Part shown: positions 2,419 to 35,303 of the stretch, piece by piece
Position numbering within the stretch: the stretch's first letter is position 1
Layout of the letters: each line of letters starts with the position of its first letter
From: Oscillospiraceae bacterium
Lineage (GTDB): Bacteria > Bacillota > Clostridia > Oscillospirales > Acutalibacteraceae
Reading direction: 5' to 3'
DNA length: 50,606 nucleotides
NCBI GenBank assembly: GCA_015065645.1
Contig: SVPW01000013.1
Coordinates: 1 to 50,606, forward strand
Notes under the pieces: model-generated
What the model saw: only the letters and a program-made list of their open reading frames with translations
The model's database searches: none
Told to the model about the DNA's origin: nothing
Program-made: the position numbers and the translations under genes

Positions 2419-2492
2419 TATAAGGCAGAATAATCGGAGGGATTTTAAAACTTTAAATGTATATAAAAATCAATTTTGGGAGGCAGAATATT

Positions 2493-3853: not shown

Positions 3854-3875
3854 GCCGCCAAAGCGTTTTGGCGGC
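3854..3875 (+). other. Intercistronic hairpin without T-run
   Basis: Perfect stem GCCGCCAAA (3854-3862) / TTTGGCGGC (3867-3875) with a 4-base loop between two GH16 genes. No T-run follows, so it is more likely an RNA-stabilising or processing structure than a terminator; it would allow different expression of the two enzymes. Confidence 0.55.
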
Positions 3876-3906
3876 TGATTATAAAAAATGTAAAGGAGAA
3901 ATTTTT

Positions 3907-6900: not shown

Positions 6901-8424
6901 TTTAATATGACATCAAATTGTATAGATGCTACTTATGTTGGCGGTATTGTTGGTTATATTACAGGCAAAACCAATATCTATAGCTGCTATGTTGCAGATA
7001 GCGTAACCCTTACTAACAAGGTTGCTGACGGTGTAGAAACCATTAAAACCGTTGTTGGTGGTATCTTGGGAGGCGGTAGCGCACCGTTTGAAATTGACGG
7101 TTGCTCCTTCTTCGGAACTATCGATAGCTCCAATTACAGATACGGCGCTGTGTTCGGTGATGTTTGGAGTGGCACAACTGCTGACAGAATAATTAAGAAC
7201 ACAATGGTTGATAAGTATACTCCTTCTTCTCGTTGGGGCTTCAAGGGTATCAATAATGTTTCTACCGTTGCTCCTTCCGGTACTACCGATGAAAACGGCA
7301 GCTTTACCGTACTTGAATCGGTTAAGGGTGAAGATGCAGTGAAGATTGCAAACTGGAACGATAGATACTTTGCTACTGAAAATTATCCTGTTCTTTCATT
7401 GCTTGGAGCACGCTTCAGTGATGTTGATGGTGACAGGGATTGTAATGCAGAAGACCTTGTTGCTTTAAGAAAGAAGCTTCTTGGAATTACAACACTTGGA
7501 TTTGCTGATATTAATGGTGACGGTACCAAGAACGTTAAGGACTTGGTTTCGTTAAAAAAAAAATGTACTGAATTAAGCGGTGCTTACAGATTAGTTTGGT
7601 CTGATGAGTTTGACGGTGCTTCACTTGATGAAACCAAGTGGAACACCGCACAAACCCGTATGGCAGATACAACCGAATTGGCACAGTCAAGCCTTGGTTC
7701 TGTAAGAACTGTGGCAGATGGTAAGCTTCAGCTTAATGCTAAGGTTAACCCTTTCTATAGTGCTGCATCGGAAACATACTTTGAACAGCATAAGTATATA
7801 ACCACAGGCTCTATCACCACAGAGAAAAAGATGAGCTATCAGTACGGTTATCTTGAAGTTAGTGCAAAGCTTCCTTATAAAGAGGGCTGTTGGCCGTCAT
7901 TGTGGCTCAGAAGCCATAATTCTACAGGCAAACAGGAAAACCCAAACTTTGAGGTTGAAGTTGATGTATTTGAAGTATTTGGCAATAAGATTGCTATGGC
8001 TTCAAACCTCCATCAGCAACAGTATAACGGTTTAAGCTATAACACAAACACATCTGAAATAAATGAAGCAGAGGTTCACACCTTTGCCGATGCTTCAAAT
8101 CTTGTAAATGAGTATCATACATACGGTTTTGAGTGGACTCCCGAAAAAATGGCTGTTTATGTAGACGGCGTTTTGCAGTGTGAATGGCTGCTTGATGCAG
8201 AAAGCCTTGAAAGCTACGGTTTAAAACCGGATGCTTCCGGCTTTGATACCACACTCAATATCCTTATAAATAATCATCTCTTTACAAATTCTTCAGCTTA
8301 TAAGCCGAGTAACAACAATATTATTGAAAACTATGAAAGCAACCTTCCCGCTGAGTATGATATAGAGTATGTTCGTCTTTATCAGAAAAACGATGGTCTT
8401 TCAAGGCTTATCCTCGGCGAATAA
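3907..8424 (+). CDS. Secreted four-module beta-solenoid / dockerin / GH16 protein
   Basis: A 1,505-residue secreted protein. Signal peptide at residues 1 to about 30 (ends TASAEVDA). Four related solenoid modules start at Trp34, Trp325, Trp613 and Trp886, each opening WxGxxAxxxAGGSGTxxDPY and rich in GLUG-like turns. Residues about 1169-1224 form a type I-like dockerin with two calcium loops (DVDGDRDCNAEDL and DINGDGTKNVKDL). Residues about 1227-1500 are a GH16 domain with EVDVFE (E1351, D1353, E1356). The dockerin is internal rather than at the C-terminus, which is unusual. The start at 3907 follows AAAGGAGAA; 13 upstream in-frame codons are unlikely to be translated. The modules probably bind glycan or extend the enzyme from the cell; that is inference. 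An A10 tract lies exactly between dockerin and GH16. Confidence 0.85.
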   Translation: MAKKLLAFLLTFALLLSSVTTAAVFTASAEVDAWDGSIATAFAGGSGTKDDPYQISNGAELAYMFNAVNVTTGSSFSNGKYFKLTADIYLNDVTKDDWKENNPNPWYVSVSTNGYRFTGNFDGAGHTVYGMYYSGESGNVGLLPVMDTWNQDTVVKDLTISDSYISTSGNIIGAVSARLYSDNKRTAHFYNINVKDSVTIESSNKDAYVGGILGFSNCNANSYYQFSGCVVLADISSDHALIGYGTNATVAKVVQSYTTASDWYPTNSTTSATAYLISDASAIKGKEAAMEAMPGLDWLRIWNCSATGYPYPMSYNTNNVAGRVWNGFLAATYAGGSGTAEDPYIIETAEQLARMVKFSGRENGYYKIVKDIYLNDVSKADWATNSPNKWFDRAAINNTAFVGNIDGTGHTVYGLYYNGGSIFGLLPQASESSIANLRISNSDITSTGAIAALVGFGQVKVSFSKCMVDETVKITGSGDTAGFVAYGTPSVYIDSSASTANITGATNVGAFIGDCWYGTSTASDGSTVYTKHVINNSYGIDHPLDAKLGYTSSNCYNTVAETQSFTAGEVVNLGDKALMQGADALKNMPELDFFGTTATYPVIYQQGTKGAVWSGSVATDYAAGSGTKADPYIIETAEQLVKLVHDANTAGKYYEITADIKLNDTAAEDWTATAKQWFAYNAASEFPGTFAGTLNGAGNTISGLYYNGDKFYVGLFVSSMNAAFNDIVVSESVLTSSNTGGSVSVFTGYVGGAINYSGCVVDDSVSVTGAHASGFGSYGSGNITVTNSISVAGVSGTKYAGAFFADVWSSTLKVSNSIGLAQFSPRRSYTGSNNYGTVEDAYGVNVVTADQMQGADALENMPKLSGYFATASYPTRYNNGTAGAVWSGAVASDFASGSGTVEDPYVIETAEQFARMLKVASKGNNYVLGADVILGNTSVANKWFDSSNSNVFAGHFDGNGYIVSGLEYTDTATGVKYVGLIPTANGAYIKNVILEDASFNMTSNCIDATYVGGIVGYITGKTNIYSCYVADSVTLTNKVADGVETIKTVVGGILGGGSAPFEIDGCSFFGTIDSSNYRYGAVFGDVWSGTTADRIIKNTMVDKYTPSSRWGFKGINNVSTVAPSGTTDENGSFTVLESVKGEDAVKIANWNDRYFATENYPVLSLLGARFSDVDGDRDCNAEDLVALRKKLLGITTLGFADINGDGTKNVKDLVSLKKKCTELSGAYRLVWSDEFDGASLDETKWNTAQTRMADTTELAQSSLGSVRTVADGKLQLNAKVNPFYSAASETYFEQHKYITTGSITTEKKMSYQYGYLEVSAKLPYKEGCWPSLWLRSHNSTGKQENPNFEVEVDVFEVFGNKIAMASNLHQQQYNGLSYNTNTSEINEAEVHTFADASNLVNEYHTYGFEWTPEKMAVYVDGVLQCEWLLDAESLESYGLKPDASGFDTTLNILINNHLFTNSSAYKPSNNNIIENYESNLPAEYDIEYVRLYQKNDGLSRLILGE
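4006..7410 (+). repeat. Four solenoid modules in the dockerin-GH16 protein
   Basis: Module starts (conserved Trp codon) at 4006, 4879, 5743 and 6562. Each contains the GSGT..DPY opening, an EQLA helix-like stretch, a KYYKLTADIYLND-type strand, a DGxGHTxxGLYY turn and several GLUG-like VGGIxG turns. The third module is strikingly close to the first module of the 2,075-residue protein downstream, including the shared strings FTGYVGGAINYSGC and AFFADVWSSTLK. Confidence 0.8.
7554..7563 (+). other. A10 tract at the dockerin-GH16 junction (possible slippage site)
   Basis: Ten consecutive A residues form the codons TTA AAA AAA AAA TGT at the last helix of the dockerin. Adding one A gives ATG TAC TGA and removing one gives AAT GTA CTG AAT TAA, so a slip in either direction ends translation within a few codons. 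The product would be the four modules plus a C-terminal dockerin, without GH16. Runs of this length are known to cause RNA-polymerase slippage in bacteria; whether it is used here is inference. Confidence 0.5.
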
Positions 8425-8568: not shown

Positions 8569-11415
8569 ATGCGTAATATACTTAAATTACGGTTATTTTC
8601 TTTAGTGATGTCTGTTGTTATGCTTTTTGGCATTTTTTCAATAGGTATTACTGCTTTTGCGGAAAACTCACAAGATACGATACCGCAGGGGATAACTGCA
8701 AATTCTTACGGTGAGTATTTGCTTTCTATGCCGATGGTTGAGCCTGCTTGCGATGATATAGTTTTAAATGCCGAAAACGCACTTTTTACTGCAAATGATG
8801 ATATTTCCTTAAATTTGGAGGATTCTTCACTTGTTTGGAAAGAAGGGTCGGCTGATGCGGCTTGGAGCTTTGAGGTTTCAAAGGATGCTTATTATAATAT
8901 AAAGCTTTCTTATAAATCTCTTGATACAGGTGTAAATTATGATTTTGGCTTTATGATTGACGGTGTTTATCCCTTTGATGAGGCAAAATTAATTTCTTTT
9001 CCTCGTATGTGGAAAAATACTTTAAGTGAATTCAAAGAGGATAATATTGGAAATCAGCTTACTCCTGAACAGATGGAGGTTGAGGGATATTCGGTTAATT
9101 CAGCACGGGATATTAACGGTGTTGTTATTGAACCTTACAGGTTTTATCTTACCGCAGGAACACATACCATTACCGTTAAAGGACCCGGGCAATCGGTGGC
9201 TTTATCTAAGGTTATACTTTCTGCTCCAGAAGAGGTTTTGAGTTATAAAGAGCTTCTAAAATCCTATGATAAAAAGGGTGATTCAGGTAAGAAAACGATA
9301 GTTATTGAGGCGGAAAATGCAATATTAAAATCCTCTTCAAAGCTTATTCCAAAATCTGATAATTCCAATGCGGGAATGTCACCTCAGGATGTTCTTTATA
9401 CCAAGCTTAATTATATAGGCGGTACATCTTGGCAGGAAGCAGGACAGTACCTTGAATGGAAATTTAATGTTGAAAAAGCAGGTTATTATTCATTTGGATT
9501 CAGATACCGCCAAAGTGATGTTATAAATGCCGAAAGCTGGCGTTGGCTTAAAATTGACGGTAAAACCCCGTTTGAAGAAGCAAAGGGTATTCGTTTTCCA
9601 TACGGTGCAGAGTGGCAGTATTTGGAGTTCGGTTCTAAAAATCAGCCCTTTCTTGTATGGCTTGATAAGGGTGAGCATACCGTATCGTTAGAGGTTACAA
9701 TGGGGGCTATGTCGGAGTATTATGACAGGCTTTCAGGTGTTGTTTCAAAGCTTGGCGATAAATATATTGAAATTGTTAAAATAACGGGTGCCACCCCTGA
9801 TATAAACCTTGATTATGAGCTGTTTAATCAGATTGCCGATTTGAATTCCACATTCCAAGAATGTTTGGAGGAGCTTGAAGCTTTATCGGGTGATTTGAAG
9901 GACTTTACGGGAAAACGAGGAAGTCAGTATATAGCTGCAATCAACAATATGTCCCGTGTGCTTGACACCATGATAGAAAGCCCTTATATTGCGCATCAGT
10001 ATGTTACCGATTATTATACAAACTATTCCTCATTAAGCTCATGGCTTTATGATATGAAGAATATGCCGTTGTGCCTTGATACAATTCAGGTTGTTCCCGA
10101 AAAGGGAGAATTTGATAATGAGGAAGTAGGCTTTTTTGAGGATCTTTTTTATACGCTTGAAAGACTTTTAATGTCCTTTGCGGATGATTACATAATTGAA
10201 TCAAAAACCGAAAGTAAGAATTCTCTAACCCTTTGGGTAAATTGGGGCAGAGATCAGGCAACAGCTCTTGATACTCTTATAAGGGATTCTTTCACACAAG
10301 AGCATAATATTCCTGTTAATGTGCGTATTACAAACGCTTCTCTTATAAACGGTTTGCTTTCGGGTAATTTCCCCGATATGGCTTTGCATCTTGCAAGAAC
10401 TGAGCCGGTAAATCTTGGTATCAGAGGGGCACTTGTTGACCTTAACGAAATGCCCGGTATTGAAAATATTTTAGAGCGTTTTCAAGATGGTGCACAATCG
10501 CCATATTCCTATAATGGTAAGCTTTACGCATTGCCTGATACTCAGAATTTCCAGCTTATGTTCTACCGCACGGATATTTTTGAAAGCTTAGGTCTTACAG
10601 TGCCTGAAACATGGGATGAATTCCTTTATACTGCGGCAATTATTCAACGAAACAATATGAATGTGTATATTCCTTATACACAGATTGTTGCTTCCACCAC
10701 AATCAATGCAGGTATAGGAAGTCTTAATCTTTTCCCAACTCTTATGACACAACACGGTCTTTCTTTGTATAATGATGAGCTTAATGCAACATCTCTTAAC
10801 AGTGTTGAGGCAACAAATGTATTTGATTATTGGACAGATTTGTATACTAAATACGATTTCCAAAAGGAAGCCGATTTTTATAACCGTTTCCGTGTAGGAA
10901 TTATGCCTTTGGGAATTGCTCCTTATTCAACATATTTAACCCTTTACAGTGCGGCTCCTGAAATTAAGGGTAGATGGGCGGTTGCTTGTATCCCCGGTGT
11001 TGAGGGCGGTAATAACTATGTTGCAGGAGCAGGTACAGGCTGTGCCATAATTAAAAAATCCAAAAACCGTGATAACGCTTGGAAGTTCCTTGATTGGTGG
11101 ACATCTGCTGAGGCTCAAACCAGATATTCAAATAATGTTGAGTCCCTTATTGGAATGTTAGGACGTCAGCAAACGGCTAATATTGAAGCTCTTGAGGATT
11201 TGGCTTGGGATAAAAATGACCTTGAGGTTATAATGGAGCAATGGTCCAGAGTGAAAGAAGTGCCTGAGGTTCCGGGAAGCTATTACTTTGGCCGTGCTCT
11301 TGATCAGGCATTTTGGTCGGTTATAAATGACGGCACAAATGCTAAGGATGCAATTTCAAAATGGAGCGAAGTTGCCGATGATGAAATTGAACGCAAAATA
11401 AAAGAATACAGTTAA
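8569..11415 (+). CDS. Solute-binding protein fused to two N-terminal CBM-like domains
   Basis: A 948-residue secreted protein. Signal peptide residues 1 to about 31 (ends ITAFAENS) without a lipobox Cys, unlike usual Gram-positive binding proteins. Two similar beta-sandwich domains follow (about 58-220 and 245-405), opening LNAENALF and IEAENAIL and containing GTHTITVKGPG and GEHTVSLEV; they look like CBM35/CBM6-type galactose-binding-like domains. A helical linker (about 420-545) leads to a family 1 extracellular solute-binding domain (about 550-945: LTLWVNWGRD, GNFPDMALHLA, YALPDTQNFQLMFYRTDIFE, PETWDEF). It lies 12 bp before its two permease genes, so it should feed an ABC importer for oligosaccharides. 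How it stays at the cell without a lipid anchor is not evident. Confidence 0.8.
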   Translation: MRNILKLRLFSLVMSVVMLFGIFSIGITAFAENSQDTIPQGITANSYGEYLLSMPMVEPACDDIVLNAENALFTANDDISLNLEDSSLVWKEGSADAAWSFEVSKDAYYNIKLSYKSLDTGVNYDFGFMIDGVYPFDEAKLISFPRMWKNTLSEFKEDNIGNQLTPEQMEVEGYSVNSARDINGVVIEPYRFYLTAGTHTITVKGPGQSVALSKVILSAPEEVLSYKELLKSYDKKGDSGKKTIVIEAENAILKSSSKLIPKSDNSNAGMSPQDVLYTKLNYIGGTSWQEAGQYLEWKFNVEKAGYYSFGFRYRQSDVINAESWRWLKIDGKTPFEEAKGIRFPYGAEWQYLEFGSKNQPFLVWLDKGEHTVSLEVTMGAMSEYYDRLSGVVSKLGDKYIEIVKITGATPDINLDYELFNQIADLNSTFQECLEELEALSGDLKDFTGKRGSQYIAAINNMSRVLDTMIESPYIAHQYVTDYYTNYSSLSSWLYDMKNMPLCLDTIQVVPEKGEFDNEEVGFFEDLFYTLERLLMSFADDYIIESKTESKNSLTLWVNWGRDQATALDTLIRDSFTQEHNIPVNVRITNASLINGLLSGNFPDMALHLARTEPVNLGIRGALVDLNEMPGIENILERFQDGAQSPYSYNGKLYALPDTQNFQLMFYRTDIFESLGLTVPETWDEFLYTAAIIQRNNMNVYIPYTQIVASTTINAGIGSLNLFPTLMTQHGLSLYNDELNATSLNSVEATNVFDYWTDLYTKYDFQKEADFYNRFRVGIMPLGIAPYSTYLTLYSAAPEIKGRWAVACIPGVEGGNNYVAGAGTGCAIIKKSKNRDNAWKFLDWWTSAEAQTRYSNNVESLIGMLGRQQTANIEALEDLAWDKNDLEVIMEQWSRVKEVPEVPGSYYFGRALDQAFWSVINDGTNAKDAISKWSEVADDEIERKIKEYS

Positions 11416-11427
11416 GGAGGAGTAAAA

Positions 11428-12342
11428 GTGAGAACAGCAAAAAAACTTAAAACCGTAAAAAACGGCAATTTACGTGAACAATTACCCATGATTATGCTGG
11501 TAGTACCTTTTGCTACCTTCTTTCTTGTGTTTACCATAATACCGATTATCTCCTCAATGGTGCTTAGCTTTACCTCCTATGATATGCTTTCAATGCCTAA
11601 GTTTGCCGGAATAGATAATTATATGAGAATGTTTATTCAGGATGAGGTTTTTGGTACGGTATTAAAAAACACCGTGGCTTTGGCTGTTGTGGTAGGGCCG
11701 ATTGGCTTTATGTTAGCGTTTCTTTTGGCATGGCTTGTAAATGAGTTTTCAACCGGGCTCAGAACCTTATTTTCATTTATGTTCTATGCACCGTCACTTG
11801 TGGGTAATGCCTATTTTATTTGGAAAATTGCCTTTAGCGGTGATGCTTACGGTTATATAAACAGCCTTTTGCTATCAACAGGCATTACCACTGAGCCTAT
11901 AGTTTGGCTTAAAGACCCCAATTATTTGTTTACCATAATAATCGTGGTTCAGCTTTGGCAGAGTATGGGTGTTTCCTTCCTTTCAAATATTTCAGGTTTG
12001 CAAAATGTTAACCGTGATCTTTATGAAGCAGGTGCTATTGATGGTATCAGAAACCGTTGGCAGGAGCTTCGTTATATAACACTGCCGTCAATGTCTCACA
12101 TGCTGTTGTTTTCGGCAGTAATGCAGATTCAAAGCAGCTTCTCTATCAGTGCGGTTGCTGTGGAATTGGCAGGCTATCCCAGCGTTCAGCATTCGGTTGA
12201 TACCATTGTTACACATATGGCTGATATGGCAACCGTTAGATATGAACTCGGTTATGCTTCATCTATTGCAGTTGTGCTGTTTTTACTTATGGCAGGCACT
12301 CGTGCTGTAATAGGTAAAGTGCTGAATTTTGTAAGTAAGTAG
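11428..12342 (+). CDS. Carbohydrate ABC transporter permease (LplB/MalF type)
   Basis: A 304-residue membrane protein with about six hydrophobic segments. The cytoplasmic EAA loop that docks the ATPase reads LYEAGAIDGIRNRWQELRYI followed by TLPSM, matching EAA---G---------I-LP. Start is GTG, 12 bp after the binding-protein stop, behind AAGGAGGAG. It pairs with the next permease. No ATPase gene is present in the window, so a shared MsmX-like ATPase is inferred. Confidence 0.9.
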   Translation: MRTAKKLKTVKNGNLREQLPMIMLVVPFATFFLVFTIIPIISSMVLSFTSYDMLSMPKFAGIDNYMRMFIQDEVFGTVLKNTVALAVVVGPIGFMLAFLLAWLVNEFSTGLRTLFSFMFYAPSLVGNAYFIWKIAFSGDAYGYINSLLLSTGITTEPIVWLKDPNYLFTIIIVVQLWQSMGVSFLSNISGLQNVNRDLYEAGAIDGIRNRWQELRYITLPSMSHMLLFSAVMQIQSSFSISAVAVELAGYPSVQHSVDTIVTHMADMATVRYELGYASSIAVVLFLLMAGTRAVIGKVLNFVSK

Positions 12343-12356
12343 GGTGGGTGAATATT

Positions 12357-13256
12357 ATGCTGAAAAAACTTTATTATAAATTTCGCTTAGCAAACCCTAA
12401 AAAACCAAATGCAAATAGATTTACCCGTTCAAAATTCGGCAATTTTATGTGTATGCTGCTGATTGTAAGTGCAGGTCTTTTTACAATGCTTCCGCTTATT
12501 TATTCGGTGGTTACATCCTTTAAGCCTATAGATGAATTGTTGATTTTTCCGCCCACATTCTTTGTTCGCCGTCCCACAACGGTAAACTATGTGGCACTTC
12601 CGGGTCTTCTTTCAAGCCTTTCGGTACCGCTTTCCCGTTATATTTTCAATAGCTTATTTATAACTGTTGTTACATCTGTGCTTAATATAATTTTTTCGGC
12701 AATGGCGGCATTTTCTCTTTCAAAGGGAACCTATAAGGGCAGAAAGATATTCTTTTTGGTGATACAATTTGCCCTTATGTTTAATGCATATACACTTTCT
12801 ATTCCGCAGTATCTTATATTTTCAAAGCTTAGAATTGTTGATACATATTGGGTGTATATTTTGCCTCAGCTTGCGGGAACCTTGGGCGTTTTCCTTATAA
12901 AGCAGTATATAGAGGGATATGTTCCCGATGCTTTAATGGAAGCTGCAAAAATTGACGGTGCGGGATATATCAGAATTTTTTGGAAGATAATAATGCCTAT
13001 TATCAAACCTGCTTGGCTTACTGTTGTGCTTTTTGCATTCAGGGATATATGGGCGGCAATTCCAAACGGAACTATATTTAATGAGGAGCTGAAAACACTT
13101 CCTCAGATAGTTACCCAAATAACTGCCGGCGGTATTGCCCGTAACGGTAGTGCAATGGCTATTACAACAATAATGATGATACCACCTATTATTGTATATT
13201 TTATTTCTCAAAGCAATGTTGTGGAAGCGATGAGCAGTGCAGGTATCAAAGAATAA
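12357..13256 (+). CDS. Carbohydrate ABC transporter permease (MalG type)
   Basis: A 299-residue permease with six predicted membrane spans and the EAA loop LMEAAKIDGAGYIRIFWKII followed by MPIIKP. It forms a heterodimer with the preceding gene. The ATG at 12357 sits behind AGGGTGGG; a GTG nine bases upstream lies inside that site and is unlikely to be the start. The C-terminus VVEAMSSAGIKE is typical of MalG-type partners. Confidence 0.9.
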   Translation: MLKKLYYKFRLANPKKPNANRFTRSKFGNFMCMLLIVSAGLFTMLPLIYSVVTSFKPIDELLIFPPTFFVRRPTTVNYVALPGLLSSLSVPLSRYIFNSLFITVVTSVLNIIFSAMAAFSLSKGTYKGRKIFFLVIQFALMFNAYTLSIPQYLIFSKLRIVDTYWVYILPQLAGTLGVFLIKQYIEGYVPDALMEAAKIDGAGYIRIFWKIIMPIIKPAWLTVVLFAFRDIWAAIPNGTIFNEELKTLPQIVTQITAGGIARNGSAMAITTIMMIPPIIVYFISQSNVVEAMSSAGIKE

Positions 13257-13278
13257 ACACAAGGAGCGATAAAGTTTT

Positions 13279-15396
13279 ATGCGTAATAAAATTATGCGGT
13301 TTGCTGCAGTTTTCTTGAGCATTATTTGTCTTGCCTCCTGTGGACTTACCGCAACAGCATATTCAACAACAAATCAAATTCCCTATGAAAGCTATACATA
13401 TTGGACCGATATAAGCGAAGAGCGAAAAGCGGTATATTGCCGCCCCATGTATGAGGTTTCACAGGAGCTTAACGCACTTAAAATAGGGGTAAAGAATTTT
13501 GATACTATAAATGATGTATATAGTGATGATAAAAATATATACATTCTTGATAAATCATGCAGAATTGTAATTCTTGATAGTGAATATAGGCTTGTAAAGG
13601 AAATAGGTAAGATTGTGGATGCAAACGGTGCTACCTATGATTATTCGGGTGCACAAAGCCTTTATGTTCATTCAGATGGTACAATCTTCATTTCCGATAC
13701 TGATAATCAGCGGGTTATGCGTGTTACTGCTGACGGTGTGCTTATTGATATTTACGGTTTACCAAAATCCACTTTGATTCCCGAAAACTTTATTTATAAG
13801 CCGTTAAAAGCGGTTATGGATTCGCATGGGTATCTTTATGTTTTAAGTGACGGCTCATACTACGGTGCACTTTTATATGCACCGGATAAAAGCTTTACGG
13901 GTTTTTACGGTGCAAATAATGTTACAACAGGTATTGCAACGGCTTTTCAAAATGTTTTAAAAAGAGTATTTTCAAATAATAAAAAGCAGAGTGCAAGTGT
14001 AAGAACATTACCGTATTCATTTGTTGATATTGTTATTGATAATAATGATTTTATCTACACCGCAACCGGTAAAACCGATACCTATGACCGTGTGGGTCAG
14101 GTAAAGATGCTCAATCCCGGAACGGGTAACAATATTCTTGATTCGGAAGAGGTAAACTTTACCGATGATGCCTTTAATACTACATTTAAAAACGGTACCC
14201 AGCTTGAGCAGGATATTGTTGGTATTGAGGTAACGGATAACGGATTTGTTTTTTGTATCGAATCTCAGTTTGGCAAGGTTTTCCTTTATGACCGTTCTTC
14301 AAGAATGTTAACGGCATTTGGCGGAGGTTTAGGTCAGGGTAAACAGGAGGGTACATTTGTTGCCGCAACTGCAATAGCCCTTAACGGAACCGATGTTATT
14401 GTAAGTGATAAGCTGAAAAATACTATTACAATATTTAAGCCCACTGAGTATGGCAAAAAGGTAATGGGTCTTATTGATATTACGCTTGATGGTAATTATC
14501 TTGAGGCACGTGAAGGCTGGGAAGAGGTTATTGCTCTTGACCGTAATTTCCAGCCCGCATACAGCGGACTTGCACGTGCTTATCTTGCGGAAAATGATTA
14601 TGAGAACGCAATGGAATGGGCACAAGAGGGTTATGACAGAGAAACATATCAATTAGCATTTGAATTTTACCGCAAAGGTATTTTAGAGGATTATTTCTGG
14701 CTTATTGCTTTGGTTGTAGTTGTATTGGTTGGCGGTATTATTGCTTTAAGGATATTCTTTAAGAAAAAGAATATTACTATCATTAAAAATAAACAAGTAA
14801 AGCTGATGCTTAAAACCCTTATACATCCTGCCCTCACATTTGAGGAAATAAAGGAAAAGAAGCAGGGCTCTGTTACAATTTCTTTAGTTCTTATTGCCTT
14901 GTTTTATGTTACAGCGGTTATTCAGGTTATTTGCGGTGGATTTATGTTTACTCAGTATGACCCCGCAACCTTTAACTCATTGTGGGTGTTTGTAAGAAGT
15001 GCGGGCTTGGTTGTGATTTGGATATTGAGCAACTGGATGATTTCCACCCTTATGCAGGGAAAGGGTACTATGCGTGAAATTTGTATAGTTACCTGTTACA
15101 GCCTTACACCTATTATAATAGAGCGCTTTTTGCGTCTTTTATTTACAAATATTCTTATTCCCACAGAAGCAATGTTCCTTACCGGTATGGATGCTTTGGC
15201 GATTGGATATGCGGCAATATTGCTTATAATAGGCCTTATAAAAATTCACGATTACAGTATGTCAAGGCTTGTGGGAACAAGTGTGCTTAGTATTGCATGG
15301 CTTGCAATATTGGTTTTTCTTATGATTTTTGTTGGAATGTTAGTACAGCAAATCGGTGGATTTGCCGTTACGGTATTTCTTGAATTAATTTCTTAA
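13279..15396 (+). CDS. Beta-propeller / TPR / Yip1-like membrane protein
   Basis: A 705-residue mosaic. The N-terminal signal carries a lipobox-like LASC (Cys21). Residues about 60-390 contain NHL-type blades (IYILDKSCRIVILDSEY, GTIFISDTDNQRVMRV, DVIVSDKLKNTITIF). Residues about 400-465 look like TPR helices (AREGWEEVIALDRNFQPAYS, ARAYLAENDYENAMEW). A membrane span at about 472-495 and a C-terminal Yip1-type domain with about five spans follow. Proteins of this kind are, from memory, found next to sugar ABC importers in Paenibacillus-like bacteria; their function is not established. Here the gene lies between two complete permease pairs. A role in organising or sensing the import machinery is inference. 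ATG follows AAGGAG at 12 bp. Confidence 0.7.
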   Translation: MRNKIMRFAAVFLSIICLASCGLTATAYSTTNQIPYESYTYWTDISEERKAVYCRPMYEVSQELNALKIGVKNFDTINDVYSDDKNIYILDKSCRIVILDSEYRLVKEIGKIVDANGATYDYSGAQSLYVHSDGTIFISDTDNQRVMRVTADGVLIDIYGLPKSTLIPENFIYKPLKAVMDSHGYLYVLSDGSYYGALLYAPDKSFTGFYGANNVTTGIATAFQNVLKRVFSNNKKQSASVRTLPYSFVDIVIDNNDFIYTATGKTDTYDRVGQVKMLNPGTGNNILDSEEVNFTDDAFNTTFKNGTQLEQDIVGIEVTDNGFVFCIESQFGKVFLYDRSSRMLTAFGGGLGQGKQEGTFVAATAIALNGTDVIVSDKLKNTITIFKPTEYGKKVMGLIDITLDGNYLEAREGWEEVIALDRNFQPAYSGLARAYLAENDYENAMEWAQEGYDRETYQLAFEFYRKGILEDYFWLIALVVVVLVGGIIALRIFFKKKNITIIKNKQVKLMLKTLIHPALTFEEIKEKKQGSVTISLVLIALFYVTAVIQVICGGFMFTQYDPATFNSLWVFVRSAGLVVIWILSNWMISTLMQGKGTMREICIVTCYSLTPIIIERFLRLLFTNILIPTEAMFLTGMDALAIGYAAILLIIGLIKIHDYSMSRLVGTSVLSIAWLAILVFLMIFVGMLVQQIGGFAVTVFLELIS

Positions 15397-15411
15397 AAAG
15401 GAGGAATTGCT

Positions 15412-17649
15412 TTGAAATTACGCAGAATAATTGCTTTGGGCTGTGTGATTGCTTTGTTGGCTACATGCCTGTTTGGCTGTGATTCAACAACCCAAGCTAA
15501 AAAGAATTCCTTTAATTCGGAAATTGAGTCAACAGATATAACCGATACATTTATTGCAGAAAACCAAAATTATACACTCTCAATCAACAGAACAACTAAG
15601 GGTGTTACCCTTACAGATAAAAAAAACGGTGAGGTTTTTGGCACAAATCCTTCGGGTGGGGAAGAAATACAGTACGATGAATTGGGTATGCCTATAAAGA
15701 GGCATCCGCAGATTGAATCGGTACTGATAATTGAATATCTGAATGTTGAGGAAAATATAACCTCAAAGGCACTTTCCTATACCGCAGTTGTAAGTGACGG
15801 ACGCACTGTTTTAGAAAAGGTTAAAAACGGTATTAAGATTAGCTATTATTTTGATGAAGCACAAATAATGGTACCCGTAACATTTACCTTGCGTGAAAAC
15901 GGCGTGGCACTTTCCATTGACCCAAAGGAAATTGAAGAAGATAAAAATATGCTTATATCGGTTTCTGTAGCACCGTATTGGTGTTCGGTTAAAAATACCG
16001 ATAATGGCGGATATCTTTTATATCCATCGGGTTCGGGTGCGCTTATTTATGCTAAGGAAATTTCCCAGCCCGGTGAAAGCTATTCATCTGAGGTTTACGG
16101 TGCTGATATTGCAAAGGAAATGACCGATAAAATCTCCACCGAAAAGAGTATAAGACTTCCTGTTTACGGTGCAACCAATGGTAAAAAAGCAAGCTTTGCC
16201 ATAATAGAATCAGGGGCAGAGTCGGCTTTGCTTGATACAACTGTTGGCTCAACCTCAATAGGTTATTCCGCAGTATATGCCACATATCAGCTGAGAGGTT
16301 ATACCAATAATTTAAAAGAGCTTTATAATAACCGTTTTTATGAGGGCTTAGTTTATTCGGATAATATGATTGACACCCCCTTAACAATAGGCTTTTATCC
16401 ACTTACGGGTGAGGGCGTGGGTTATGCTGAAATGGCACAAAGTTACCGTGAGTATCTTAATAAAATAAACGGTAAGGCAGAGTGCAGCAATAACTCAAAG
16501 CTTGATGTTACATTTGTTGGCGGTGCAATGATTTCAAAATCATTTTTGGGTATTCCTTATAAAACGCTATATCCTACCACAACACTTGCTCAGGCAAAGG
16601 ATATTTTATCTGATTTAAAGAAAAACGGTGTGGATGTTTCAAACATTAATTTATACGGCTTTGGCGAAAACGGTATAGATTCAAATGAATTGGCAGGCGG
16701 CTTTGTTATTGATAGCGGTTTGGGTGATGAGGATGATTTAAAAACGCTTACCGAAGCTGCGGGTAAAACGAATATTTACTTTGATTTTGATACCGTTACC
16801 TTTACCGATTCTGCAGATGGCTTTGATAGCTATTTTGATAGTGCTACCCGTGCAAACAGAAAGCCTGTAAAGCTTTATAATTACAGCATTTCAGTACTTG
16901 GTAAGGAAACTGACGGTGCATATTCCGTGCTTTCACGTGATAGAATTTTGTCGGCGGTAAAAATGCTGAATGAAGAAACCGAAGAATGGAGCATGGATGG
17001 TATAGGCCTTTCGGCTCTTTCAAGCATAGCCTATTCTGATTATACCGATAAGTCTAACAGTGAGTATTATGCAAAGGCAGGTATGGCAAATCAGGTTTCA
17101 AAGGCAATTAAAACCGTTAAAAACAGAAAGGTTTTAACAAGTGATGCTAATGCTTTTGCGGCATTGCAGTCAGATCTTGTAATTAATGCTCCCACAATTT
17201 CTTCAAAGGCAAAGCTGTTTGATGCGGAAATTCCATTCTATTCAATGGCTCTGCGTGGAAGGGTTGCACTTTCGGCAGAAAGTATAAATTTGGCAGTTGA
17301 TTCCAAATCACAGCTTTTGCGTGCAGTTGAGGGCGGAATGGGAATTTCGTATACGGTAAGCAACAGTTATTCAACAAAGCTTTTGGAGAGCAAATCAACT
17401 GTATTTTATAACAGCCTCTATAAAGATATTAAGGATGATATAATCTCTGATTATAAACTTGTTTCTGATTATTATGAAAAAATATCCAATGCCTTTATAG
17501 TGGATCACAGGATACTTGATTCGTCATTGCGTGAAACTGTTTTTTCAAACGGTGTTAGCGTGTTTGTAAACTATTCTGATGAAGAGATAGTATCTTCTGC
17601 GGGTAATGTGCCTGCAAACAGCTTCTTGGTATGGGAGGCAGATGTATGA
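15412..17649 (+). CDS. DUF5696-like lipoprotein
   Basis: A 745-residue lipoprotein (lipobox LFGC, Cys23; TTG start behind AAAAGGAGGAA). After a beta-rich N-terminal half (SINRTTKGVTLTDKKNGEVF, VSVAPYWCSVKN, YLLYPSGSGALIY) the second half has the feel of a TIM-barrel hydrolase (FYPLTGEGVGYAEMAQSYRE, DVSNINLYGFGENG, FDFDTVTF, MDGIGLSALSS). Genes of this size beside Yip1-domain and sugar permease genes are annotated DUF5696 in related genomes; I recall this and cannot verify it. No catalytic residues can be named. It overlaps the next permease by ATGA, indicating translational coupling. A surface glycan-binding or cleaving partner of the importer is a guess. Confidence 0.6.
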   Translation: MKLRRIIALGCVIALLATCLFGCDSTTQAKKNSFNSEIESTDITDTFIAENQNYTLSINRTTKGVTLTDKKNGEVFGTNPSGGEEIQYDELGMPIKRHPQIESVLIIEYLNVEENITSKALSYTAVVSDGRTVLEKVKNGIKISYYFDEAQIMVPVTFTLRENGVALSIDPKEIEEDKNMLISVSVAPYWCSVKNTDNGGYLLYPSGSGALIYAKEISQPGESYSSEVYGADIAKEMTDKISTEKSIRLPVYGATNGKKASFAIIESGAESALLDTTVGSTSIGYSAVYATYQLRGYTNNLKELYNNRFYEGLVYSDNMIDTPLTIGFYPLTGEGVGYAEMAQSYREYLNKINGKAECSNNSKLDVTFVGGAMISKSFLGIPYKTLYPTTTLAQAKDILSDLKKNGVDVSNINLYGFGENGIDSNELAGGFVIDSGLGDEDDLKTLTEAAGKTNIYFDFDTVTFTDSADGFDSYFDSATRANRKPVKLYNYSISVLGKETDGAYSVLSRDRILSAVKMLNEETEEWSMDGIGLSALSSIAYSDYTDKSNSEYYAKAGMANQVSKAIKTVKNRKVLTSDANAFAALQSDLVINAPTISSKAKLFDAEIPFYSMALRGRVALSAESINLAVDSKSQLLRAVEGGMGISYTVSNSYSTKLLESKSTVFYNSLYKDIKDDIISDYKLVSDYYEKISNAFIVDHRILDSSLRETVFSNGVSVFVNYSDEEIVSSAGNVPANSFLVWEADV

Positions 17650-18557
17650 AAAAGAAAAAATACCGTGGAATAGAACAGATTAAAAGCCGTTACGGCTGGT
17701 TGTTTATTTCCACTTGGCTTGTGGGCGTTGTGCTGTTTTTTGCAATTCCCATAATACAATCCGTGATATATTCTTTTTCTCAGGTTTATTTTGCAGAAGG
17801 TGCTGATGGCACTATGCAAATGCAAACCGATTGGATAGGAATTAAAAATTACAATTACATCATTAATGAGCATACCGATTATCTTTCCTGGCTGGGCAGA
17901 TCTGTTACAAACTTTTTGTATTCTTTGCCCGTAATTGTACTCCTTAGCCTTATATTGGCACTTTTGCTTAATCAAAAGTTCAGAGGTCGTCTTTTCTTCA
18001 GAGCACTCTATTTTATGCCTGTTATAATCGCAACGGGAGTAGTAATTAATCTTGTTGACGGTATGGCGGGAACCGATATGACATCTTCTTCGGTAAATGA
18101 GTCGGTATCGGGGGGAATGTTTAGTGTTCAGGATGTAATTTCGGTGCTTGATTTACCGGTTCAGGTGGCGGAATTTGTTCAAAAAATTATTGGCGATATT
18201 TTTGATCTTATTTGGAACAGCGGTATACAAACTGTTCTGTTTTTGGCGGGCTTGCAGTCAATTCCGTCAACTCTTTATGAGGCAAGTAAGGTTGAGGGTG
18301 CCACCAAATGGGAGGAGTTTTGGTTTATAACCTTCCCAATGCTTTCAAATGTTACTTTACTTGTAATTGTTTACACCATGGTGGAAATTTTGGTAAGTAA
18401 TAACAATGTAATGGTATCGCATATTTACAGCCTTATGAATGCTGCAGTTTATGATACAACATCCGCTATGATGTGGTTCTATTTCTTGGCAATAGGTGCC
18501 GTGATGGGAATTATAGTGGTGCTTTTCAAAAAGCTGCTGCAAAACAGATGGTCTTAA
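17646..18557 (+). CDS. Carbohydrate ABC transporter permease (second importer, MalF type)
   Basis: A 303-residue permease. The EAA loop is LYEASKVEGATKWEEFWFIT followed by FPMLSN. An extended periplasmic-side insert with VDGMAGTDMTSSSVNESV lies between spans. The ATG at 17646 overlaps the preceding stop codon (ATGA), with GGGAGGC seven bases upstream; a further ATG at 17631 lies on the wrong side of that site. It partners the next gene. Confidence 0.88.
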   Translation: MKKKKYRGIEQIKSRYGWLFISTWLVGVVLFFAIPIIQSVIYSFSQVYFAEGADGTMQMQTDWIGIKNYNYIINEHTDYLSWLGRSVTNFLYSLPVIVLLSLILALLLNQKFRGRLFFRALYFMPVIIATGVVINLVDGMAGTDMTSSSVNESVSGGMFSVQDVISVLDLPVQVAEFVQKIIGDIFDLIWNSGIQTVLFLAGLQSIPSTLYEASKVEGATKWEEFWFITFPMLSNVTLLVIVYTMVEILVSNNNVMVSHIYSLMNAAVYDTTSAMMWFYFLAIGAVMGIIVVLFKKLLQNRWS

Positions 18558-18572
18558 AAAGGGGGATTTAGA

Positions 18573-19565
18573 TTGAAAATTGCAAATATTGAAAAAAATC
18601 CCCTTGTAAACAGTAAAAGAATTGAAGGATTAAAAAAATCTCTTCCCTCAAAATTTGGGTTTATATTCCGTTTGGTAATGCTTATATCCATTGGTTTTGT
18701 AATCATTTATCCTCTTCTTTATATGATTGTAACATCACTTGTAAGCCGTAACGGATTTTTCAATTCCACCCGTGTTTGGATTCCTGAAGCTATAAGCCCT
18801 GCATTTAACTATAAAATAGCATGGGAGCTTTTGGAGTATGGCACATCACTTTTATCAACAGTTAAGTATGAGATAGTAAGTGCATTGATTCAGGTTGCAA
18901 CCTGTGCTGTTACGGCATACGGCTTTGCAAGATTTAAGTTTAAGGGTAAAAACCTGCTTATTGGTGTGCTTTTCCTTACAATTCTTGTTCCGGATATGAT
19001 GGTGCTTATCCCAAGAATGGCCAATTATTCAAAAATGGATTTTTTGGGTATCCTGGGATTGTTTAACCGCCTGACGGGGATTGATTTAAGACCCAATATT
19101 TTGGAAAGTGTTGCAGCATTTTATTTGCCTTCACTCTTTTCAATCGGTCTTAGATCGGGTATAATGATATTCATATACATACAGTTCTTTTCAAGCTTCC
19201 CTAAAGAGCTTGAGGAGGCTGCTTGGATAGACGGTGCGGGACCTATAAAAACCTTTTTAAAGATTGCAATACCATCTTCCGGCGTTGTTATAACAACAGT
19301 TTTGGTATTCTCACTTATATGGCACTGGAATGATTATCTGCTTTGTGCAATGTATCTCGATGAAGATACCACCTTGGCTATAGCACTTGATCAGTTGCCT
19401 GATACCCTTACAACGCTCGGTTACAGGCTTAACCCCGAAACCCCCGAAACACTTGCTTTCCAGATGGCGGGTTGTGTACTTTTTGTGGCACCGATGCTTA
19501 TAGTATATATGTTTTTACAGCGCAGGTTTATAGAAAGTATTGACCGTGTTGGTATTACGGGATAA
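18573..19565 (+). CDS. Carbohydrate ABC transporter permease (second importer, MalG type)
   Basis: A 330-residue permease with a TTG start behind AAGGGGG. The EAA loop is LEEAAWIDGAGPIKTFLKIA followed by IPSSG. The C-terminus FIESIDRVGITG is typical of MalG-type subunits. Its 35-residue N-terminal cytoplasmic extension is slightly longer than usual. Together with the previous gene and the downstream binding protein it makes a second importer, again without its own ATPase. Confidence 0.88.
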   Translation: MKIANIEKNPLVNSKRIEGLKKSLPSKFGFIFRLVMLISIGFVIIYPLLYMIVTSLVSRNGFFNSTRVWIPEAISPAFNYKIAWELLEYGTSLLSTVKYEIVSALIQVATCAVTAYGFARFKFKGKNLLIGVLFLTILVPDMMVLIPRMANYSKMDFLGILGLFNRLTGIDLRPNILESVAAFYLPSLFSIGLRSGIMIFIYIQFFSSFPKELEEAAWIDGAGPIKTFLKIAIPSSGVVITTVLVFSLIWHWNDYLLCAMYLDEDTTLAIALDQLPDTLTTLGYRLNPETPETLAFQMAGCVLFVAPMLIVYMFLQRRFIESIDRVGITG

Positions 19566-19620
19566 AGTTATTTATTCGGTTTTTATGCCGATAAAATAAA
19601 TTTGTAAAGGAGAAAAAATT

Positions 19621-20949
19621 ATGTTTGAAAAAACGGTAAAAATTTGCACTAAGTTTCTTTGTCTTTTATTGGCTGTTGTAATGGTAGCAGGTTGCTCCGG
19701 CGACTCCGATAAAACCGATAAAGGCTCAGGCAAAGATCGCCCTACTAACACCACCACCGCAAACGGTGTTAATCCGGAAGAATTTCGCGGTACAACGGTT
19801 GTTTACGCAACCTGGAAGGATCCTTATAAGAATGAGGATGGCAAAGTAATTGATAAATTCAAGAAGAAATACGGTATTGATGTAAAGATTGATATGGTTC
19901 CTCAGGATACCTATGTACAGGAAGTTGCTGCTAAAATTGTGGCAGGAAATTCTCCTGACGTATTCTTTGATAACTGCTTCTTCCCGGCATCCTTGGCAGT
20001 TCTTCAGCCGCTTGAGGCAATGAAGCTTGATACTAATGATGATATTTGGGATCAGGGTATGTTTGAGATGTCTACTTTTGGCGGAAAACCCTTCTTGGCA
20101 AATACCGTTGGTAACATTTGGGCAGAGGTTGACTGTCTTTTCTATAACAAAAAGATATTTAAGGATAATAACATCACCACTCCTGAAGAGTATTATGAGG
20201 CAGGCAAGTGGAACTTTGCAGCTCTTACAAAGGCTATGACCGATGTTAAAAATGCCGGATATATCGGCGGTTATATTGATGTTCAGTCACTTTTGGCTTC
20301 AACAGGCTCGGGTTTCTATAACTTCAAAGATGGAAAGTTCTCCAATGGCGTTAACGAAAAGACCACAGCAGTTATAACCCAGATTTCTCAATGGGTAAGT
20401 GACGGTCTTATTAAAGACCCAAGAGAGTATAACCTCCTTAACAACTTCATTAAGGGTAACTGCGGTATTGCTATAACCAATGCATACGGTATGAAGGCTA
20501 CAGGTTATTTTGCTGATATGAACCCCAATGATATAGGCTTTACCTATATTCCAAAGTTTGATGATAACACAAACGCTTACACCACAGGTCTTTTCCGTGG
20601 TTGGGGTCTTGTAAAAGGTGCTAAGAACCCTGTTGCTGCAGGTATTTTCTTGCGTTATTATCTTGATGTAAGCAATTATGACCTTGATTCTGCTTTCATC
20701 AATAAGGATGCTCAAAACTTCTTCTTCAAGCTTACAAGCGGTGTTGATACCAATGAAAAGAATCCTTATATGCTTTTGGGTATTACCCAGCTTTGCAGTG
20801 AAAAGGTTAGTGATTATACCGGTATTTCCGGTATGGCTCCCGGTCAGGTAAGCACACAAATTTCAAGTATTTCTCCCAAGATTACAAACAATGCAAATGT
20901 TGTAAATCAAGAGATTGAGAAGAATTTGAAGGCATTAGGTCTTAACTGA
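19621..20949 (+). CDS. Extracellular solute-binding lipoprotein (family 1)
   Basis: A 442-residue binding protein. Lipobox VAGC (Cys25), followed by a Ser/Asp/Lys/Thr linker, then the family 1 fold: TTVVYATWKDPYKNEDGKVI, GNSPDVFFDNCFFP, ECDCLFYNKK-like region WAEVDCLFYNKKIFKDNNI, and ISGMAPGQVSTQISSI near the C-terminus. It follows its two permeases (55 bp gap) behind AAAGGAG. It is ordinary in size, unlike the 948-residue binding protein of the first importer. The substrate is presumably an oligosaccharide released by the GH16 enzymes. Confidence 0.88.
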   Translation: MFEKTVKICTKFLCLLLAVVMVAGCSGDSDKTDKGSGKDRPTNTTTANGVNPEEFRGTTVVYATWKDPYKNEDGKVIDKFKKKYGIDVKIDMVPQDTYVQEVAAKIVAGNSPDVFFDNCFFPASLAVLQPLEAMKLDTNDDIWDQGMFEMSTFGGKPFLANTVGNIWAEVDCLFYNKKIFKDNNITTPEEYYEAGKWNFAALTKAMTDVKNAGYIGGYIDVQSLLASTGSGFYNFKDGKFSNGVNEKTTAVITQISQWVSDGLIKDPREYNLLNNFIKGNCGIAITNAYGMKATGYFADMNPNDIGFTYIPKFDDNTNAYTTGLFRGWGLVKGAKNPVAAGIFLRYYLDVSNYDLDSAFINKDAQNFFFKLTSGVDTNEKNPYMLLGITQLCSEKVSDYTGISGMAPGQVSTQISSISPKITNNANVVNQEIEKNLKALGLN

Positions 20950-21105: not shown

Positions 21106-24100
21106 ATGAGAATTATGCGTAATTTCTCTATTAAAACGGTTTCGTTAATACTTGCTGTTTGCGTTTTGCTTTCTGCATTAACGGCAGGTGTAACGTTTAC
21201 CGTAACCTCGCAAAATGATGAGGTTGATTCTTTGCAGCCGCAGGCTTTGGAGTATTGGTCAGGTGATATTGCTGCAAATTATGCATCAGGTAGCGGTACG
21301 GATAGTAATCCATATATTATAGAAACTGCCGAACAGCTTGCAAAATTGGTAAAGGAAGCTGATACCACAGGTAAGTTTTATAAGTTGGCTTGTGATATTC
21401 ATATCAATGATACTTCTAAGGATAATTGGAAGGATACAGCTAAACAGTGGTACGGATATAATAAAGCGGCTGAATTCCCCGGCACTTTTGCAGGTACTCT
21501 TGACGGTGCAGGTCATAAAATAATAGGCCTTTACTACAATTCAAACCATTATTATGTGGGTTTGTTTGTGGCAATGAAAAATGCAACGGTTAAAAATATT
21601 ACCTTGAGCCAAAGCTATATGGCAACCTCCAATGCATCAGGTAATATTTCTGCCTTTACAGGTTATGTTGGCGGTGCCATCAATTACAGCGGTTGTGTTT
21701 TGGAAGAAACCGTAACCATTTCCGGTGCTGAGGCTTCGGGATTTGGTAGCTGGGGCTCCGGTAATATTACTGTCAGCAACTGTGCATCTGCCGCAAAGAT
21801 AATAGGTACTGTTCACGCAGGAGCATTTTTTGCCGATGTTTGGAGCAGTACACTTAAAATTTCAAATAGCTTCGGAACAAGTGCTTTCAGCCCAAGAAGG
21901 GCAATCACCTCTACAAATAACTATTCCACAGTTGGCGATTCTTATGGAACAAATGTGGTAACGGTTGATAAGATGAAGGGTGAGCTTGCAAAGGATAATA
22001 TGCCAAACCTTAATTGGAGCACCTGGAAAACCACCCAATCTTTCCCTGTTGTTAAAATTTTGGATCCTAACGGTACCAAGGGTGAAGTATGGTCGGGCGA
22101 TATTGCTTTGCAATATGCAGGAGGAACAGGTACGCAAGGAGATCCGTATTTAATTGAAACACCCGAACAGCTTGCTCGTATGGTAGGCTATGATGTTCTT
22201 ACCAAATACACCGCAAATATACAAAATAATTCGGTTAATAAGTATTATAAGCTTACTGCCGATATTTATCTTAATGATGTTTCAAAAGATAACTGGTATA
22301 ATTTAAGCGGACTTAATAAGTGGTATTCTTCTAATGCCAGCCGTTTTTGCGGTTATTTTGATGGTAACGGCTATACAATTTACGGTTTATATACCGATTC
22401 TTCGGCTGATTATGCAGGTCTTATTCCTGTGGCAGATGCTTGGTCTGCCGATAGAGTTTTTAAAGATATAACCATTTCTCATTCCTATATCAGCGGTAAA
22501 AGCTATGTGGGAGGTATTGTGGGAAGAATATACTCCGGCAATAATAAAACCGTTTCCTTTAATAACTGTTATGTTACAGAAACGGTTGTATTTGAAACAA
22601 AGAGCGCATCTGCATACTGTGGAGGAATAGTTGGTTATGAGCATCCAAACTCATCATCTTTCTTCTCCTTTACAGGTTGTGCTGTATTGGCAAATGTACC
22701 CACAGGTAACGGCTTTGCAGGAGCTGAGCCTGCAAGCGGCACATTAAGCATTTCAAACAGCTTTACGGTTAATAATAAGTGGTATCCAAAAAGCGGTGCT
22801 TTATCGGATTCATATTTGGTATCGGATTTAGCGTCTATCTTTGGAGCTGAGGCAAAGGATACTATGCCCGGTCTTGCTTGGAGCTATATCTGGGCTATAA
22901 AGCAGGATGGTTATCCCGTATATTACAGCAGAAACTATGATCTTAACGGAAAAATCGGTGAAGTTTGGTCAGGTCTTACAGCATTGGAATATGCAGGCGG
23001 AAAGGGAAGCGAAAACGACCCTTATAAAATAGCAACCGCCGAGCAGTTTATTAAAATGCTTAAAGATACTGCAAATGAGGGTAAATATTACGAGCTTATT
23101 TCCGATATAAGATTTAATGACACCTCCTTAGAAAATTGGAAAGAAAATGCAAGAAAATGGTCTTCAATAACCAATCGTTTTAAGGGGAATTTTGATGGTA
23201 ATGGTCACACAATAAGCGGAATTTATTATGACGGCTCAGAGAATAATGTGGGTCTTTTCTGCGTGGCTCAAAATGCGAACATTGAAAACTTAATTTTGAA
23301 TAACAGCTATATCAAATCAAGCGGATTTGCTATAGGTGGCGTTTTGGGTCAGGCTATAGGTACTGTTAATCTTAACGAATGTTATGTAGGGGAAGATGTT
23401 TATATTGAGTCTACATATAATGTAGGCGGTGATGCAGGAGCTGGCGGTATTGTAGGCTATGGCGGTGCTACCGTAAAGATAAACGGTTGTGCATTTTTGG
23501 GCACCGTTAAAGCACCTCGCTTTGCAGGTTCAATAGCAGGTAACTGTTGGTCAAAGGTTATTATTACAAATACATTCTCAACCGCTGATATGCGTTTCTG
23601 CTCAAAGATGGCTCTTGATTCAGCTTCTGATAATAACTATTCGGCATATTCTACCGGCGAAAACTGCGTTATTTATATTTTAGCTGATAAGATGCTTGGC
23701 GTTAATGCCATGGAGAATATGTCCGGTCTTGATTGGGGCAGAATTTGGAAAATCGATGCAAACAGCTATCCTGCTTGCCAATTTGCAGAAGACCCCGGTT
23801 GCGCTGAAGGTGTATGGTCGGGAGATATTGCCGAAAGCTTTGCAGGCGGAAGCGGAACTATGGAAGATCCGTATCAAATATCAAACGGCGAACAGCTTGC
23901 TTTGATGGTTACAGGCGGTGACAGTGCAGGTAAATACTATAAGCTTACTGCGGATATTCGCCTCAATGATACCACGGATAAAACATGGAGATTTTTTGCA
24001 AGGCAGTGGATCTGGACATCAAATATTTTTGAGGGCAATTTTGATGGTGCAGGTCATAAAATAACAGGACTTTATTACAACGGTACAAAATCAAAGGTTG

Positions 24101-28545: not shown

Positions 28546-28557
28546 GGTTTGAAAAAA

Positions 28558-29334
28558 ATGGATTTAGAAAAATTATTGTGGGAAGAAAATGAAAAGCCAT
28601 TAGACCGTATTGTATATGACGGCGGTTATGCAAGGGTTTTCAGAACAATAGGCTGCATTGGTGACAGTCTTTCATCGGGTGAACACGAATCCCGTGATGC
28701 CGAGGGAAATCAGGGTTATCATGATTTTTATGATTATTCTTGGGGTCAGTATATAGCAAGAAACGCAGGAATAGATGTATATAATTTTTCAAAGGGTGGT
28801 ATGACTGCTAAATGCTTTATGGAAAGCTTTGGTGAAAAATGCGGTGCTTGGACAGATGCAAAAAAATGCCAGGCTTATATACTTGCTTTGGGTGTAAATG
28901 ATATTTACACAAAGCAGGTTGAATTGGGCGCTGTTTCCGATGTTGATTTGGAAGATTATAATAACAATAAGCCCACATTTGCGGGTTATTACGCAATGAT
29001 AATTCAAAAGCTTAAAGCTATTCAACCCGATGCTAAGTTTTTCCTTGTAACACTTCCAAACGGTGTTGAAAATCTGCGTGGTGAAGAGCATGCGGCACTG
29101 CTTAAAGAAATGGCAGAGCTTTTTAGCAATACCTATGTTATTGACCTTAGAACATACAGCCCCAAATACGATTCTGATTTTAAGAGCAAGTTTTTTGTTG
29201 GCGGTCATATGAATGCGGCAGGATATATTCTTACCGCCCAAATGATAACATCCTATATTGACTATATTGTGCGCCATAACTTCAAGGATTTTGCTCAGGT
29301 TGGTTTTATAGGCACACCCTATAAATATATTTAA
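28558..29334 (+). CDS. SGNH/GDSL-family hydrolase
   Basis: A 258-residue esterase-like protein: block I GDSLSSGE (Ser37), block III GVND (Asn114), block V GGHMNAAGY with His217. An oxyanion Gly is plausible in FSKGGMTA. The family removes acyl groups such as acetyl from glycans. No signal peptide, hence cytoplasmic. The ATG at 28558 is ten bases after GAGG; the TTG at 28549 gives three extra residues but leaves no room for a ribosome site. Together with the beta-helix protein it fits clean-up of decorated oligosaccharides. Confidence 0.82.
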   Translation: MDLEKLLWEENEKPLDRIVYDGGYARVFRTIGCIGDSLSSGEHESRDAEGNQGYHDFYDYSWGQYIARNAGIDVYNFSKGGMTAKCFMESFGEKCGAWTDAKKCQAYILALGVNDIYTKQVELGAVSDVDLEDYNNNKPTFAGYYAMIIQKLKAIQPDAKFFLVTLPNGVENLRGEEHAALLKEMAELFSNTYVIDLRTYSPKYDSDFKSKFFVGGHMNAAGYILTAQMITSYIDYIVRHNFKDFAQVGFIGTPYKYI

Positions 29335-29345
29335 GAGGCTATAAA

Positions 29346-30563: not shown

Positions 30564-30567
30564 TTAT

Positions 30568-31731: not shown

Positions 31732-31744
31732 AAGAGGAAATTAA

Positions 31745-35290: not shown

Positions 35291-35303
35291 AACGGAGGCT
35301 ATT

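Follow-up and report, generated by a model that had tools for sequence, protein, structure and literature searches.

A putative composite carbohydrate import module combining two ABC permease pairs with a propeller/Yip1 protein and DUF5696 in Bacillota

An operon that encodes two permease pairs of the ATP-binding cassette (ABC) importer type, sets two unusual proteins between them and carries no ATPase raises the question of what its products might do together. Such an operon is located in the 50,606-nucleotide stretch of an Oscillospiraceae genome (contig SVPW01000013.1; hereafter the window) analysed here. We report that its components are inherited and copied together and that the module recurs in numerous soil and gut bacteria, where it probably serves the uptake of long glycan chains through two membrane transporters aided by a pair of surface proteins. 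The reading we tentatively favour, at somewhat less than even chances, is that of a composite carbohydrate ABC import module whose seven components are kept together as one assembly served by a shared UgpC/MsmX-type ATPase. Of 398 genomes sampled from the phylum, 37 carry the marker genes, which have hydrolases for several polysaccharides as neighbours. If two permease pairs do form a conserved partnership, such loci would have to be annotated differently, and the module offers a direct test case for ABC importers working as coupled pairs.

Gene order and constancy of the module

All eight genes lie on the plus strand between 8569 and 20949, at the positions given by the first-pass annotation, whose account of the gene order, the tight operon and an ATGA overlap at mid-operon was confirmed by Pfam and the window sequence. 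The operon opens with a 948-aa binding protein (SBPbig, 8569–11415; SBP_bac_8 at 85 bits over residues 573–875), followed by two permeases matching BPD_transp_1, P1 with its EAA loop (11428–12342) and P2 (12348–13256). A protein with propeller, TPR-like and Yip1 parts (YIP, 13279–15396) and a DUF5696 lipoprotein (15412–17649) occupy the middle, before the permeases P3 (17646–18557; BPD_transp_1, 28.9 bits) and P4 (18573–19565; BPD_transp_1, 44 bits). These seven form the core, and a small binding protein (19621–20949; SBP_bac_8, 47 bits), a probable lipoprotein with a cysteine within its signal region, closes the operon. Intergenic gaps measure 5–22 bases within the core and 55 bases before the final gene. 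The ATGA shared by DUF5696 and P3 spans 17646–17649; the open reading frame of P3 is listed from 17631, but translation probably begins at the ATG at 17646. Promoter and terminator scans performed no better than on shuffled sequences.

The window genome, a 1.86 Mb draft that is 85.7 % complete, gave 11 matches to DUF5696: nine between 399 and 533 bits, a single match at 150 bits and, under the cut-off, a frame that by eye reads as a glycogen branching enzyme. All nine strong genes lie in the same type of module. In L024, P3–P4 are found upstream and the Yip1 protein occurs as two genes, with all seven components kept, and in L028 a 2235-aa gene separates P3 from a P4-type frame that runs off the edge of the sequence retrieved around that locus. 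The pairs L025–L026 and L021–L023 were recovered in all seven gene trees, and Mantel comparisons of distances, each based on 8 or 9 modules, correlated for all 21 gene pairs (r 0.74–0.95, reached by at most 4 of 2000 permutations). These common tree pairs and correlated distances indicate that the module has been copied as a unit.

In a survey of 398 genomes of the phylum, with at most three DUF5696 candidates scored per genome, 46 genomes gave a match, 39 passed the cut-off and 37 exceeded 400 bits; YIP and module-type P1 were present in every one of these 37. The full propeller/Yip1 protein (above 100 bits, two candidates scored per genome) was found in 38 of the 398, where G243, with no more than a fragment, joins the 37 strong DUF5696 genomes, and this confinement ruled out that Yip1 or DUF5696 are simply generic. 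By itself the Yip1 domain is widespread, being present in 7 of 14 control genomes, and DUF5696 gave a weak match in two of the 14 and none above the cut-off. Module-type P1 was detected in six further genomes (43 in total), of which two, G080 and G154, are represented by fragments of contigs carrying SBPbig and P1. The other four, of family f18, have P1–P2 with YIP and DUF5696 both absent from the sequence around them. In eight genomes, module P1 scored at least 377 bits versus at most 188 for non-module permeases. The loci of the four f18 genomes, L187–L190 (G127, G054, G093 and G007), contain P1–P2 relatives at 369–376 bits and lack SBPbig as well as Yip1 and DUF5696; in L187 the relatives are followed by two different MalK-type ATPases and by CBM35/CBM6-like and CBM4_9-like proteins identified by Pfam, and L188–L190 contain frames of similar sizes.

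By the first-pass annotation's own criterion, its reading would fall if the two middle genes occurred mostly away from permease genes, and no such pattern was seen. Among 55 loci surrounding the listed strong DUF5696 matches outside the window genome, YIP was found in 54 and P3 in 53, and the absences (L055 for YIP, L053 and L086 for P3) all fall at contig ends; SBPbig and P1 lay within the stretch in 36 of the 55 and not in 19, some of them cut short. A second set, anchored on P1, comprised the best 80 of at least 591 relatives in named genomes, chosen by P1 similarity, and included Paenibacillus, Lederbergia, Neobacillus, Gracilibacillus, Halalkalibacter, Cohnella, Acholeplasma and many Clostridia. 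Laboratory strains with a module include Paenibacillus xylanexedens DSM 21292 (L164) and Clostridium sp. KNHs205 (L148). Within these 80 the order was kept as far as the contigs extend: 69 had the exact order, nine were cut by a contig end and two (L156 and L157) had extra or broken pieces. Given this constancy and the nine genomic copies, chance clustering of the genes was ruled out. In 54 of 72 cases the DUF5696 gene overlaps or directly abuts that of P3. Variants of the order have YIP after P4 (L175) or SBPbig–P1–P2 after P4 (L059 and L073, for example). In L156, SBPbig, P3 and P4 are each split into two overlapping frames, through decay or sequencing error.

Separable halves

The two halves of the module can be found apart. 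Genome G062 has ten strong DUF5696 genes versus four module-type P1, and surplus copies of this kind are half modules of YIP–DUF5696–P3–P4. Stand-alone SBPbig–P1–P2 was found at one locus or more in each of five genomes inspected (L169–L173), and G240, a sixth such genome, has one half in L074 and the other in L193. Genomes in which the halves separate still retain a module-type P1; the SBPbig–P1–P2 half, whose presence was assessed by P1 alone, is kept in the genome and may be shared. A small binding protein within 3.5 kb on the same strand accompanied 18 of 27 loci lacking SBPbig–P1–P2 in the stretch, a few of which are merely cut by contig ends, and 12 of the 13 with clean flanks; the corresponding counts for full modules were 83 of 125 and 31 of 42. 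The half modules and these counts suggest that YIP and DUF5696 go with P3–P4 and often with the small binding protein. Since SBPbig–P1–P2 may be sited elsewhere while YIP–DUF5696–P3–P4 stay together, the two odd proteins appear to belong first to the second importer. The tight two-importer unit of the first-pass annotation was accordingly retained in part: its components are kept together, but the half modules loosen the unit and place YIP and DUF5696 with importer 2 in the first instance.

A plainer explanation, which we regard as rather unlikely, is that a pair of ordinary importers, each handling a different product of one polysaccharide, share a transcript and never touch, YIP and DUF5696 being accessory only to the second. 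Families f65 and f50, which carry YIP–DUF5696–P3–P4 without SBPbig–P1–P2 nearby, speak in its favour, as does the frequent overlap or contact of DUF5696 and P3, but it does not readily account for module-type P1 in all 37 strong DUF5696 genomes or for the rearranged L024 of the window genome, which retains all seven components, and mere substrate pairing would permit swapped pairs.

Among 70 modules, P1 was the most conserved gene, with a mean pairwise identity of 0.60, followed by P2 with 0.55; the values were 0.41 for both P3 and P4, 0.36 for YIP and 0.30 for DUF5696, and SBPbig reached 0.41 over its whole length, 0.49 in the SBP domain and 0.35 in the region before it. Such a pattern would fit a common side formed by P1 and P2 and a tuned side formed by P3 and P4. 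Several points weigh against the composite module, however. The separable halves are equally consistent with two importers side by side, and a constant gene order can arise from co-regulation alone. P1 was itself the search key, so that its high identity is partly a matter of selection, and SBPbig as a whole is conserved no more than P3 or P4. The EAA loop, the coupling site for a MalK-type ATPase, is present in the consensus of all four permeases, but the strict pattern, found in 70 (P1), 47 (P2) and 54 (P4) of the 70, was found in only 32 of the 70 P3. Finally, no small binding protein was found near 11 of the 42 full modules with clean flanks.

The middle proteins and the supply of ATPase

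The gene described as DUF5696-like by the first-pass annotation is DUF5696 itself (429 bits, cut-off 25.6). Its predicted fold is GH129/GH101-like, with the N-terminal beta-sandwich, barrel and C-terminal beta domain of GH129, and DUF5696 may bind or cleave glycan. On this fold an active glycosidase that trims chains between both importers could be envisaged, yet we consider it unlikely. No acid is common to all 74 DUF5696 proteins, position 423 being acidic in 21, 534 in 6 and 535 in 53; an acid at 534 or 535 occurs in only 6 of the 15 members of the window clade, the window protein having S and A; and residue 423 varies among the nine modules of a single genome. On the other hand, the window clade keeps D423 and D458 in 14 of 15, D543 in 15 of 15 and E640 in 13 of 15, and with several acids kept DUF5696 could still cleave. 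The view of DUF5696 as a plainly dead enzyme was softened after this recount. In NagBb, D330 presumably has a catalytic role. D486N of ZgGH129 is named in the title of structure 8rzk, and the GH129 family is treated in PMC8106489 and PMC6923384. DUF5696 differs from the GH129/GH101 glycosidases (NagBb, ZgGH129, EngBF) in being membrane-anchored beside permeases, with acids that vary between clades; no description of it was found in open-licence literature.

As a module marker DUF5696 is not perfect, for one of its ten above-cut-off matches in the window genome lies outside any module. This short solitary relative (L029, 7871–9580, minus strand) also matches DUF6259 and, below the cut-off, Glyco_hydro_101; it sits among GH36-, rhamnosidase- and esterase-like genes and is perhaps of an enzymatic type.

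YIP is modelled with an N-terminal helix, an NHL propeller (residues 39–388), TPR-like helices (390–450), a long helix (454–497) and a helical membrane domain (505–704) assigned to Yip1 (PF04893; 51.2 bits, gathering score 28.6). The propeller/TPR/Yip1 architecture proposed at first was recovered in its NHL-like repeats and Yip1 domain, with a weak TPR match (20.2 bits, below the cut-off of 25). That YIP is a sensor which regulates expression by signalling glycan binding through the membrane is very improbable, for neither a kinase nor any other domain for signalling is present in the model, many lineages encode the Yip1 half separately, in a gene of about 210 aa (50 of the 69 exact-order loci, against 19 with a fused gene), and the constant partners of YIP are permeases, not regulators.

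SBPbig has about 550 N-terminal residues preceding its SBP domain. Matches to CBM_35 or Golvesin, below the cut-off, were obtained in 6 of 8 SBPbig relatives scanned, and the window SBPbig gave none to either, even below the cut-off. The operon joins an SBP_bac_1/8 binding protein to BPD_transp_1 permease pairs, as in the CUT1 class of carbohydrate importers served by a shared MsmX/UgpC ATPase. CUT1 importers likewise have a binding protein, two MalF/MalG-type permeases with EAA loops and an ATPase encoded elsewhere; here, in contrast, there are two permease pairs, two extra retained proteins and the extension of SBPbig.

The absence of an ATPase from the operon held on inspection, contig C8 containing none of the 30 ABC_tran matches of the genome. 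A scan of 166 loci for the Walker A and LSGGQ patterns revealed no ATPase inside any module; six reading frames were considered as a hidden ATPase and rejected, five lying in flanks and one in L030, a locus fetched for its own ATPase. The draft window genome has one OB_MalK protein for nine modules, a stand-alone 389-aa frame that scores 488 bits with the NCBIfam UgpC model (cut-off 432). As the first-pass annotation anticipated for an MsmX-type ATPase, this protein would be the natural shared ATPase, with the caveat that the draft is incomplete.

Proposed mechanism, known systems and glycan context

Predicted folds, protein families and gene neighbourhoods suggest the following course. Glycoside hydrolases (GH) secreted by the cell would generate oligosaccharides, to be captured by SBPbig and, in modules that have one, by the small binding protein. 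The membrane-anchored DUF5696 would hold or present the chain more likely than cut it, its candidate acids differing between clades. The propeller/TPR part of YIP would lie outside the membrane and the Yip1 part within it, where, by analogy with YknW, it may assemble the P1–P2 and P3–P4 pairs into one unit, and a single UgpC/MsmX-type ATPase would drive all modules. P3–P4 and the small binding protein would form the substrate-tuned side, and SBPbig–P1–P2, with the more conserved permeases, the common partner. The first-pass annotation proposed that YIP and DUF5696 form an outer-face platform or sensor, and they may indeed hand long oligosaccharides to the importers. A bolder version of the composite module, which we find doubtful, is a seven-protein super-complex of two coupled importers, a propeller/Yip1 scaffold and a chain-threading GH129-fold protein, which would constitute a functional SusCD counterpart in Bacillota, driven for many glycans by one shared ATPase.

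SusCD-type uptake in the Bacteroidota similarly relies on surface binding proteins that feed a dedicated importer beside glycoside hydrolase genes, but the present module has no SusC or SusD and uses Gram-positive inner-membrane ABC permeases. To our knowledge, long-glycan uptake by Gram-positive bacteria is less understood than SusCD. YknW, a Yip1-family protein, has been reported to modulate assembly of the YknXYZ complex (PMC4887032), and a Yip1 protein serves an ABC transporter there too; YknWXYZ differs in exporting a peptide toxin and in its permease class, and the accessible part of that paper mentions no propeller or TPR. The beta-glucan clusters of Acholeplasma and Paenibacillus contain permease genes without an ATPase, GH16 and GH3, one of them reportedly without a binding protein (PMC6484121); set against the module by description only, they have no Yip1 or DUF5696 protein named in the part of the paper available. 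The accessible part of PMC4765114 names no Yip1, and among the literature matches listed, which are open-licence papers, there was no account of this module.

The neighbours of the modules, of which 72 of the 78 lying upstream and 66 of the 70 lying downstream were scanned, include GH26, CBM65, GH10, GH30, GH28, GH16, GH35, GH36, GH43 and GH31 proteins; a second neighbour table gives 25 of 43 families. Such varied neighbours argue against a module dedicated to a single glycan. The window copy comes after two GH16 proteins on the plus strand outside the core module, one at 2457–3839 and one with a dockerin at 3868–8424, which likely constitute its glycan context. In Acholeplasma laidlawii (L113), the neighbours are a GHL10 protein and the exo-muramidase NamZ, and this placement in a wall-less bacterium hints at scavenging of foreign peptidoglycan.

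The product of 3868–8424 is also a giant secreted protein with repeated GLUG-like units, and directly 3' of the operon another giant secreted protein of 2075 aa (21106–27333) has such units and an apparent C-terminal membrane helix. A second gene run (27484–37619) encodes a beta-helix protein, a GDSL esterase, an MFS transporter, a phosphoesterase, a 1181-aa protein, a GH30 protein and a PHP protein, and is perhaps a separate glycan locus.

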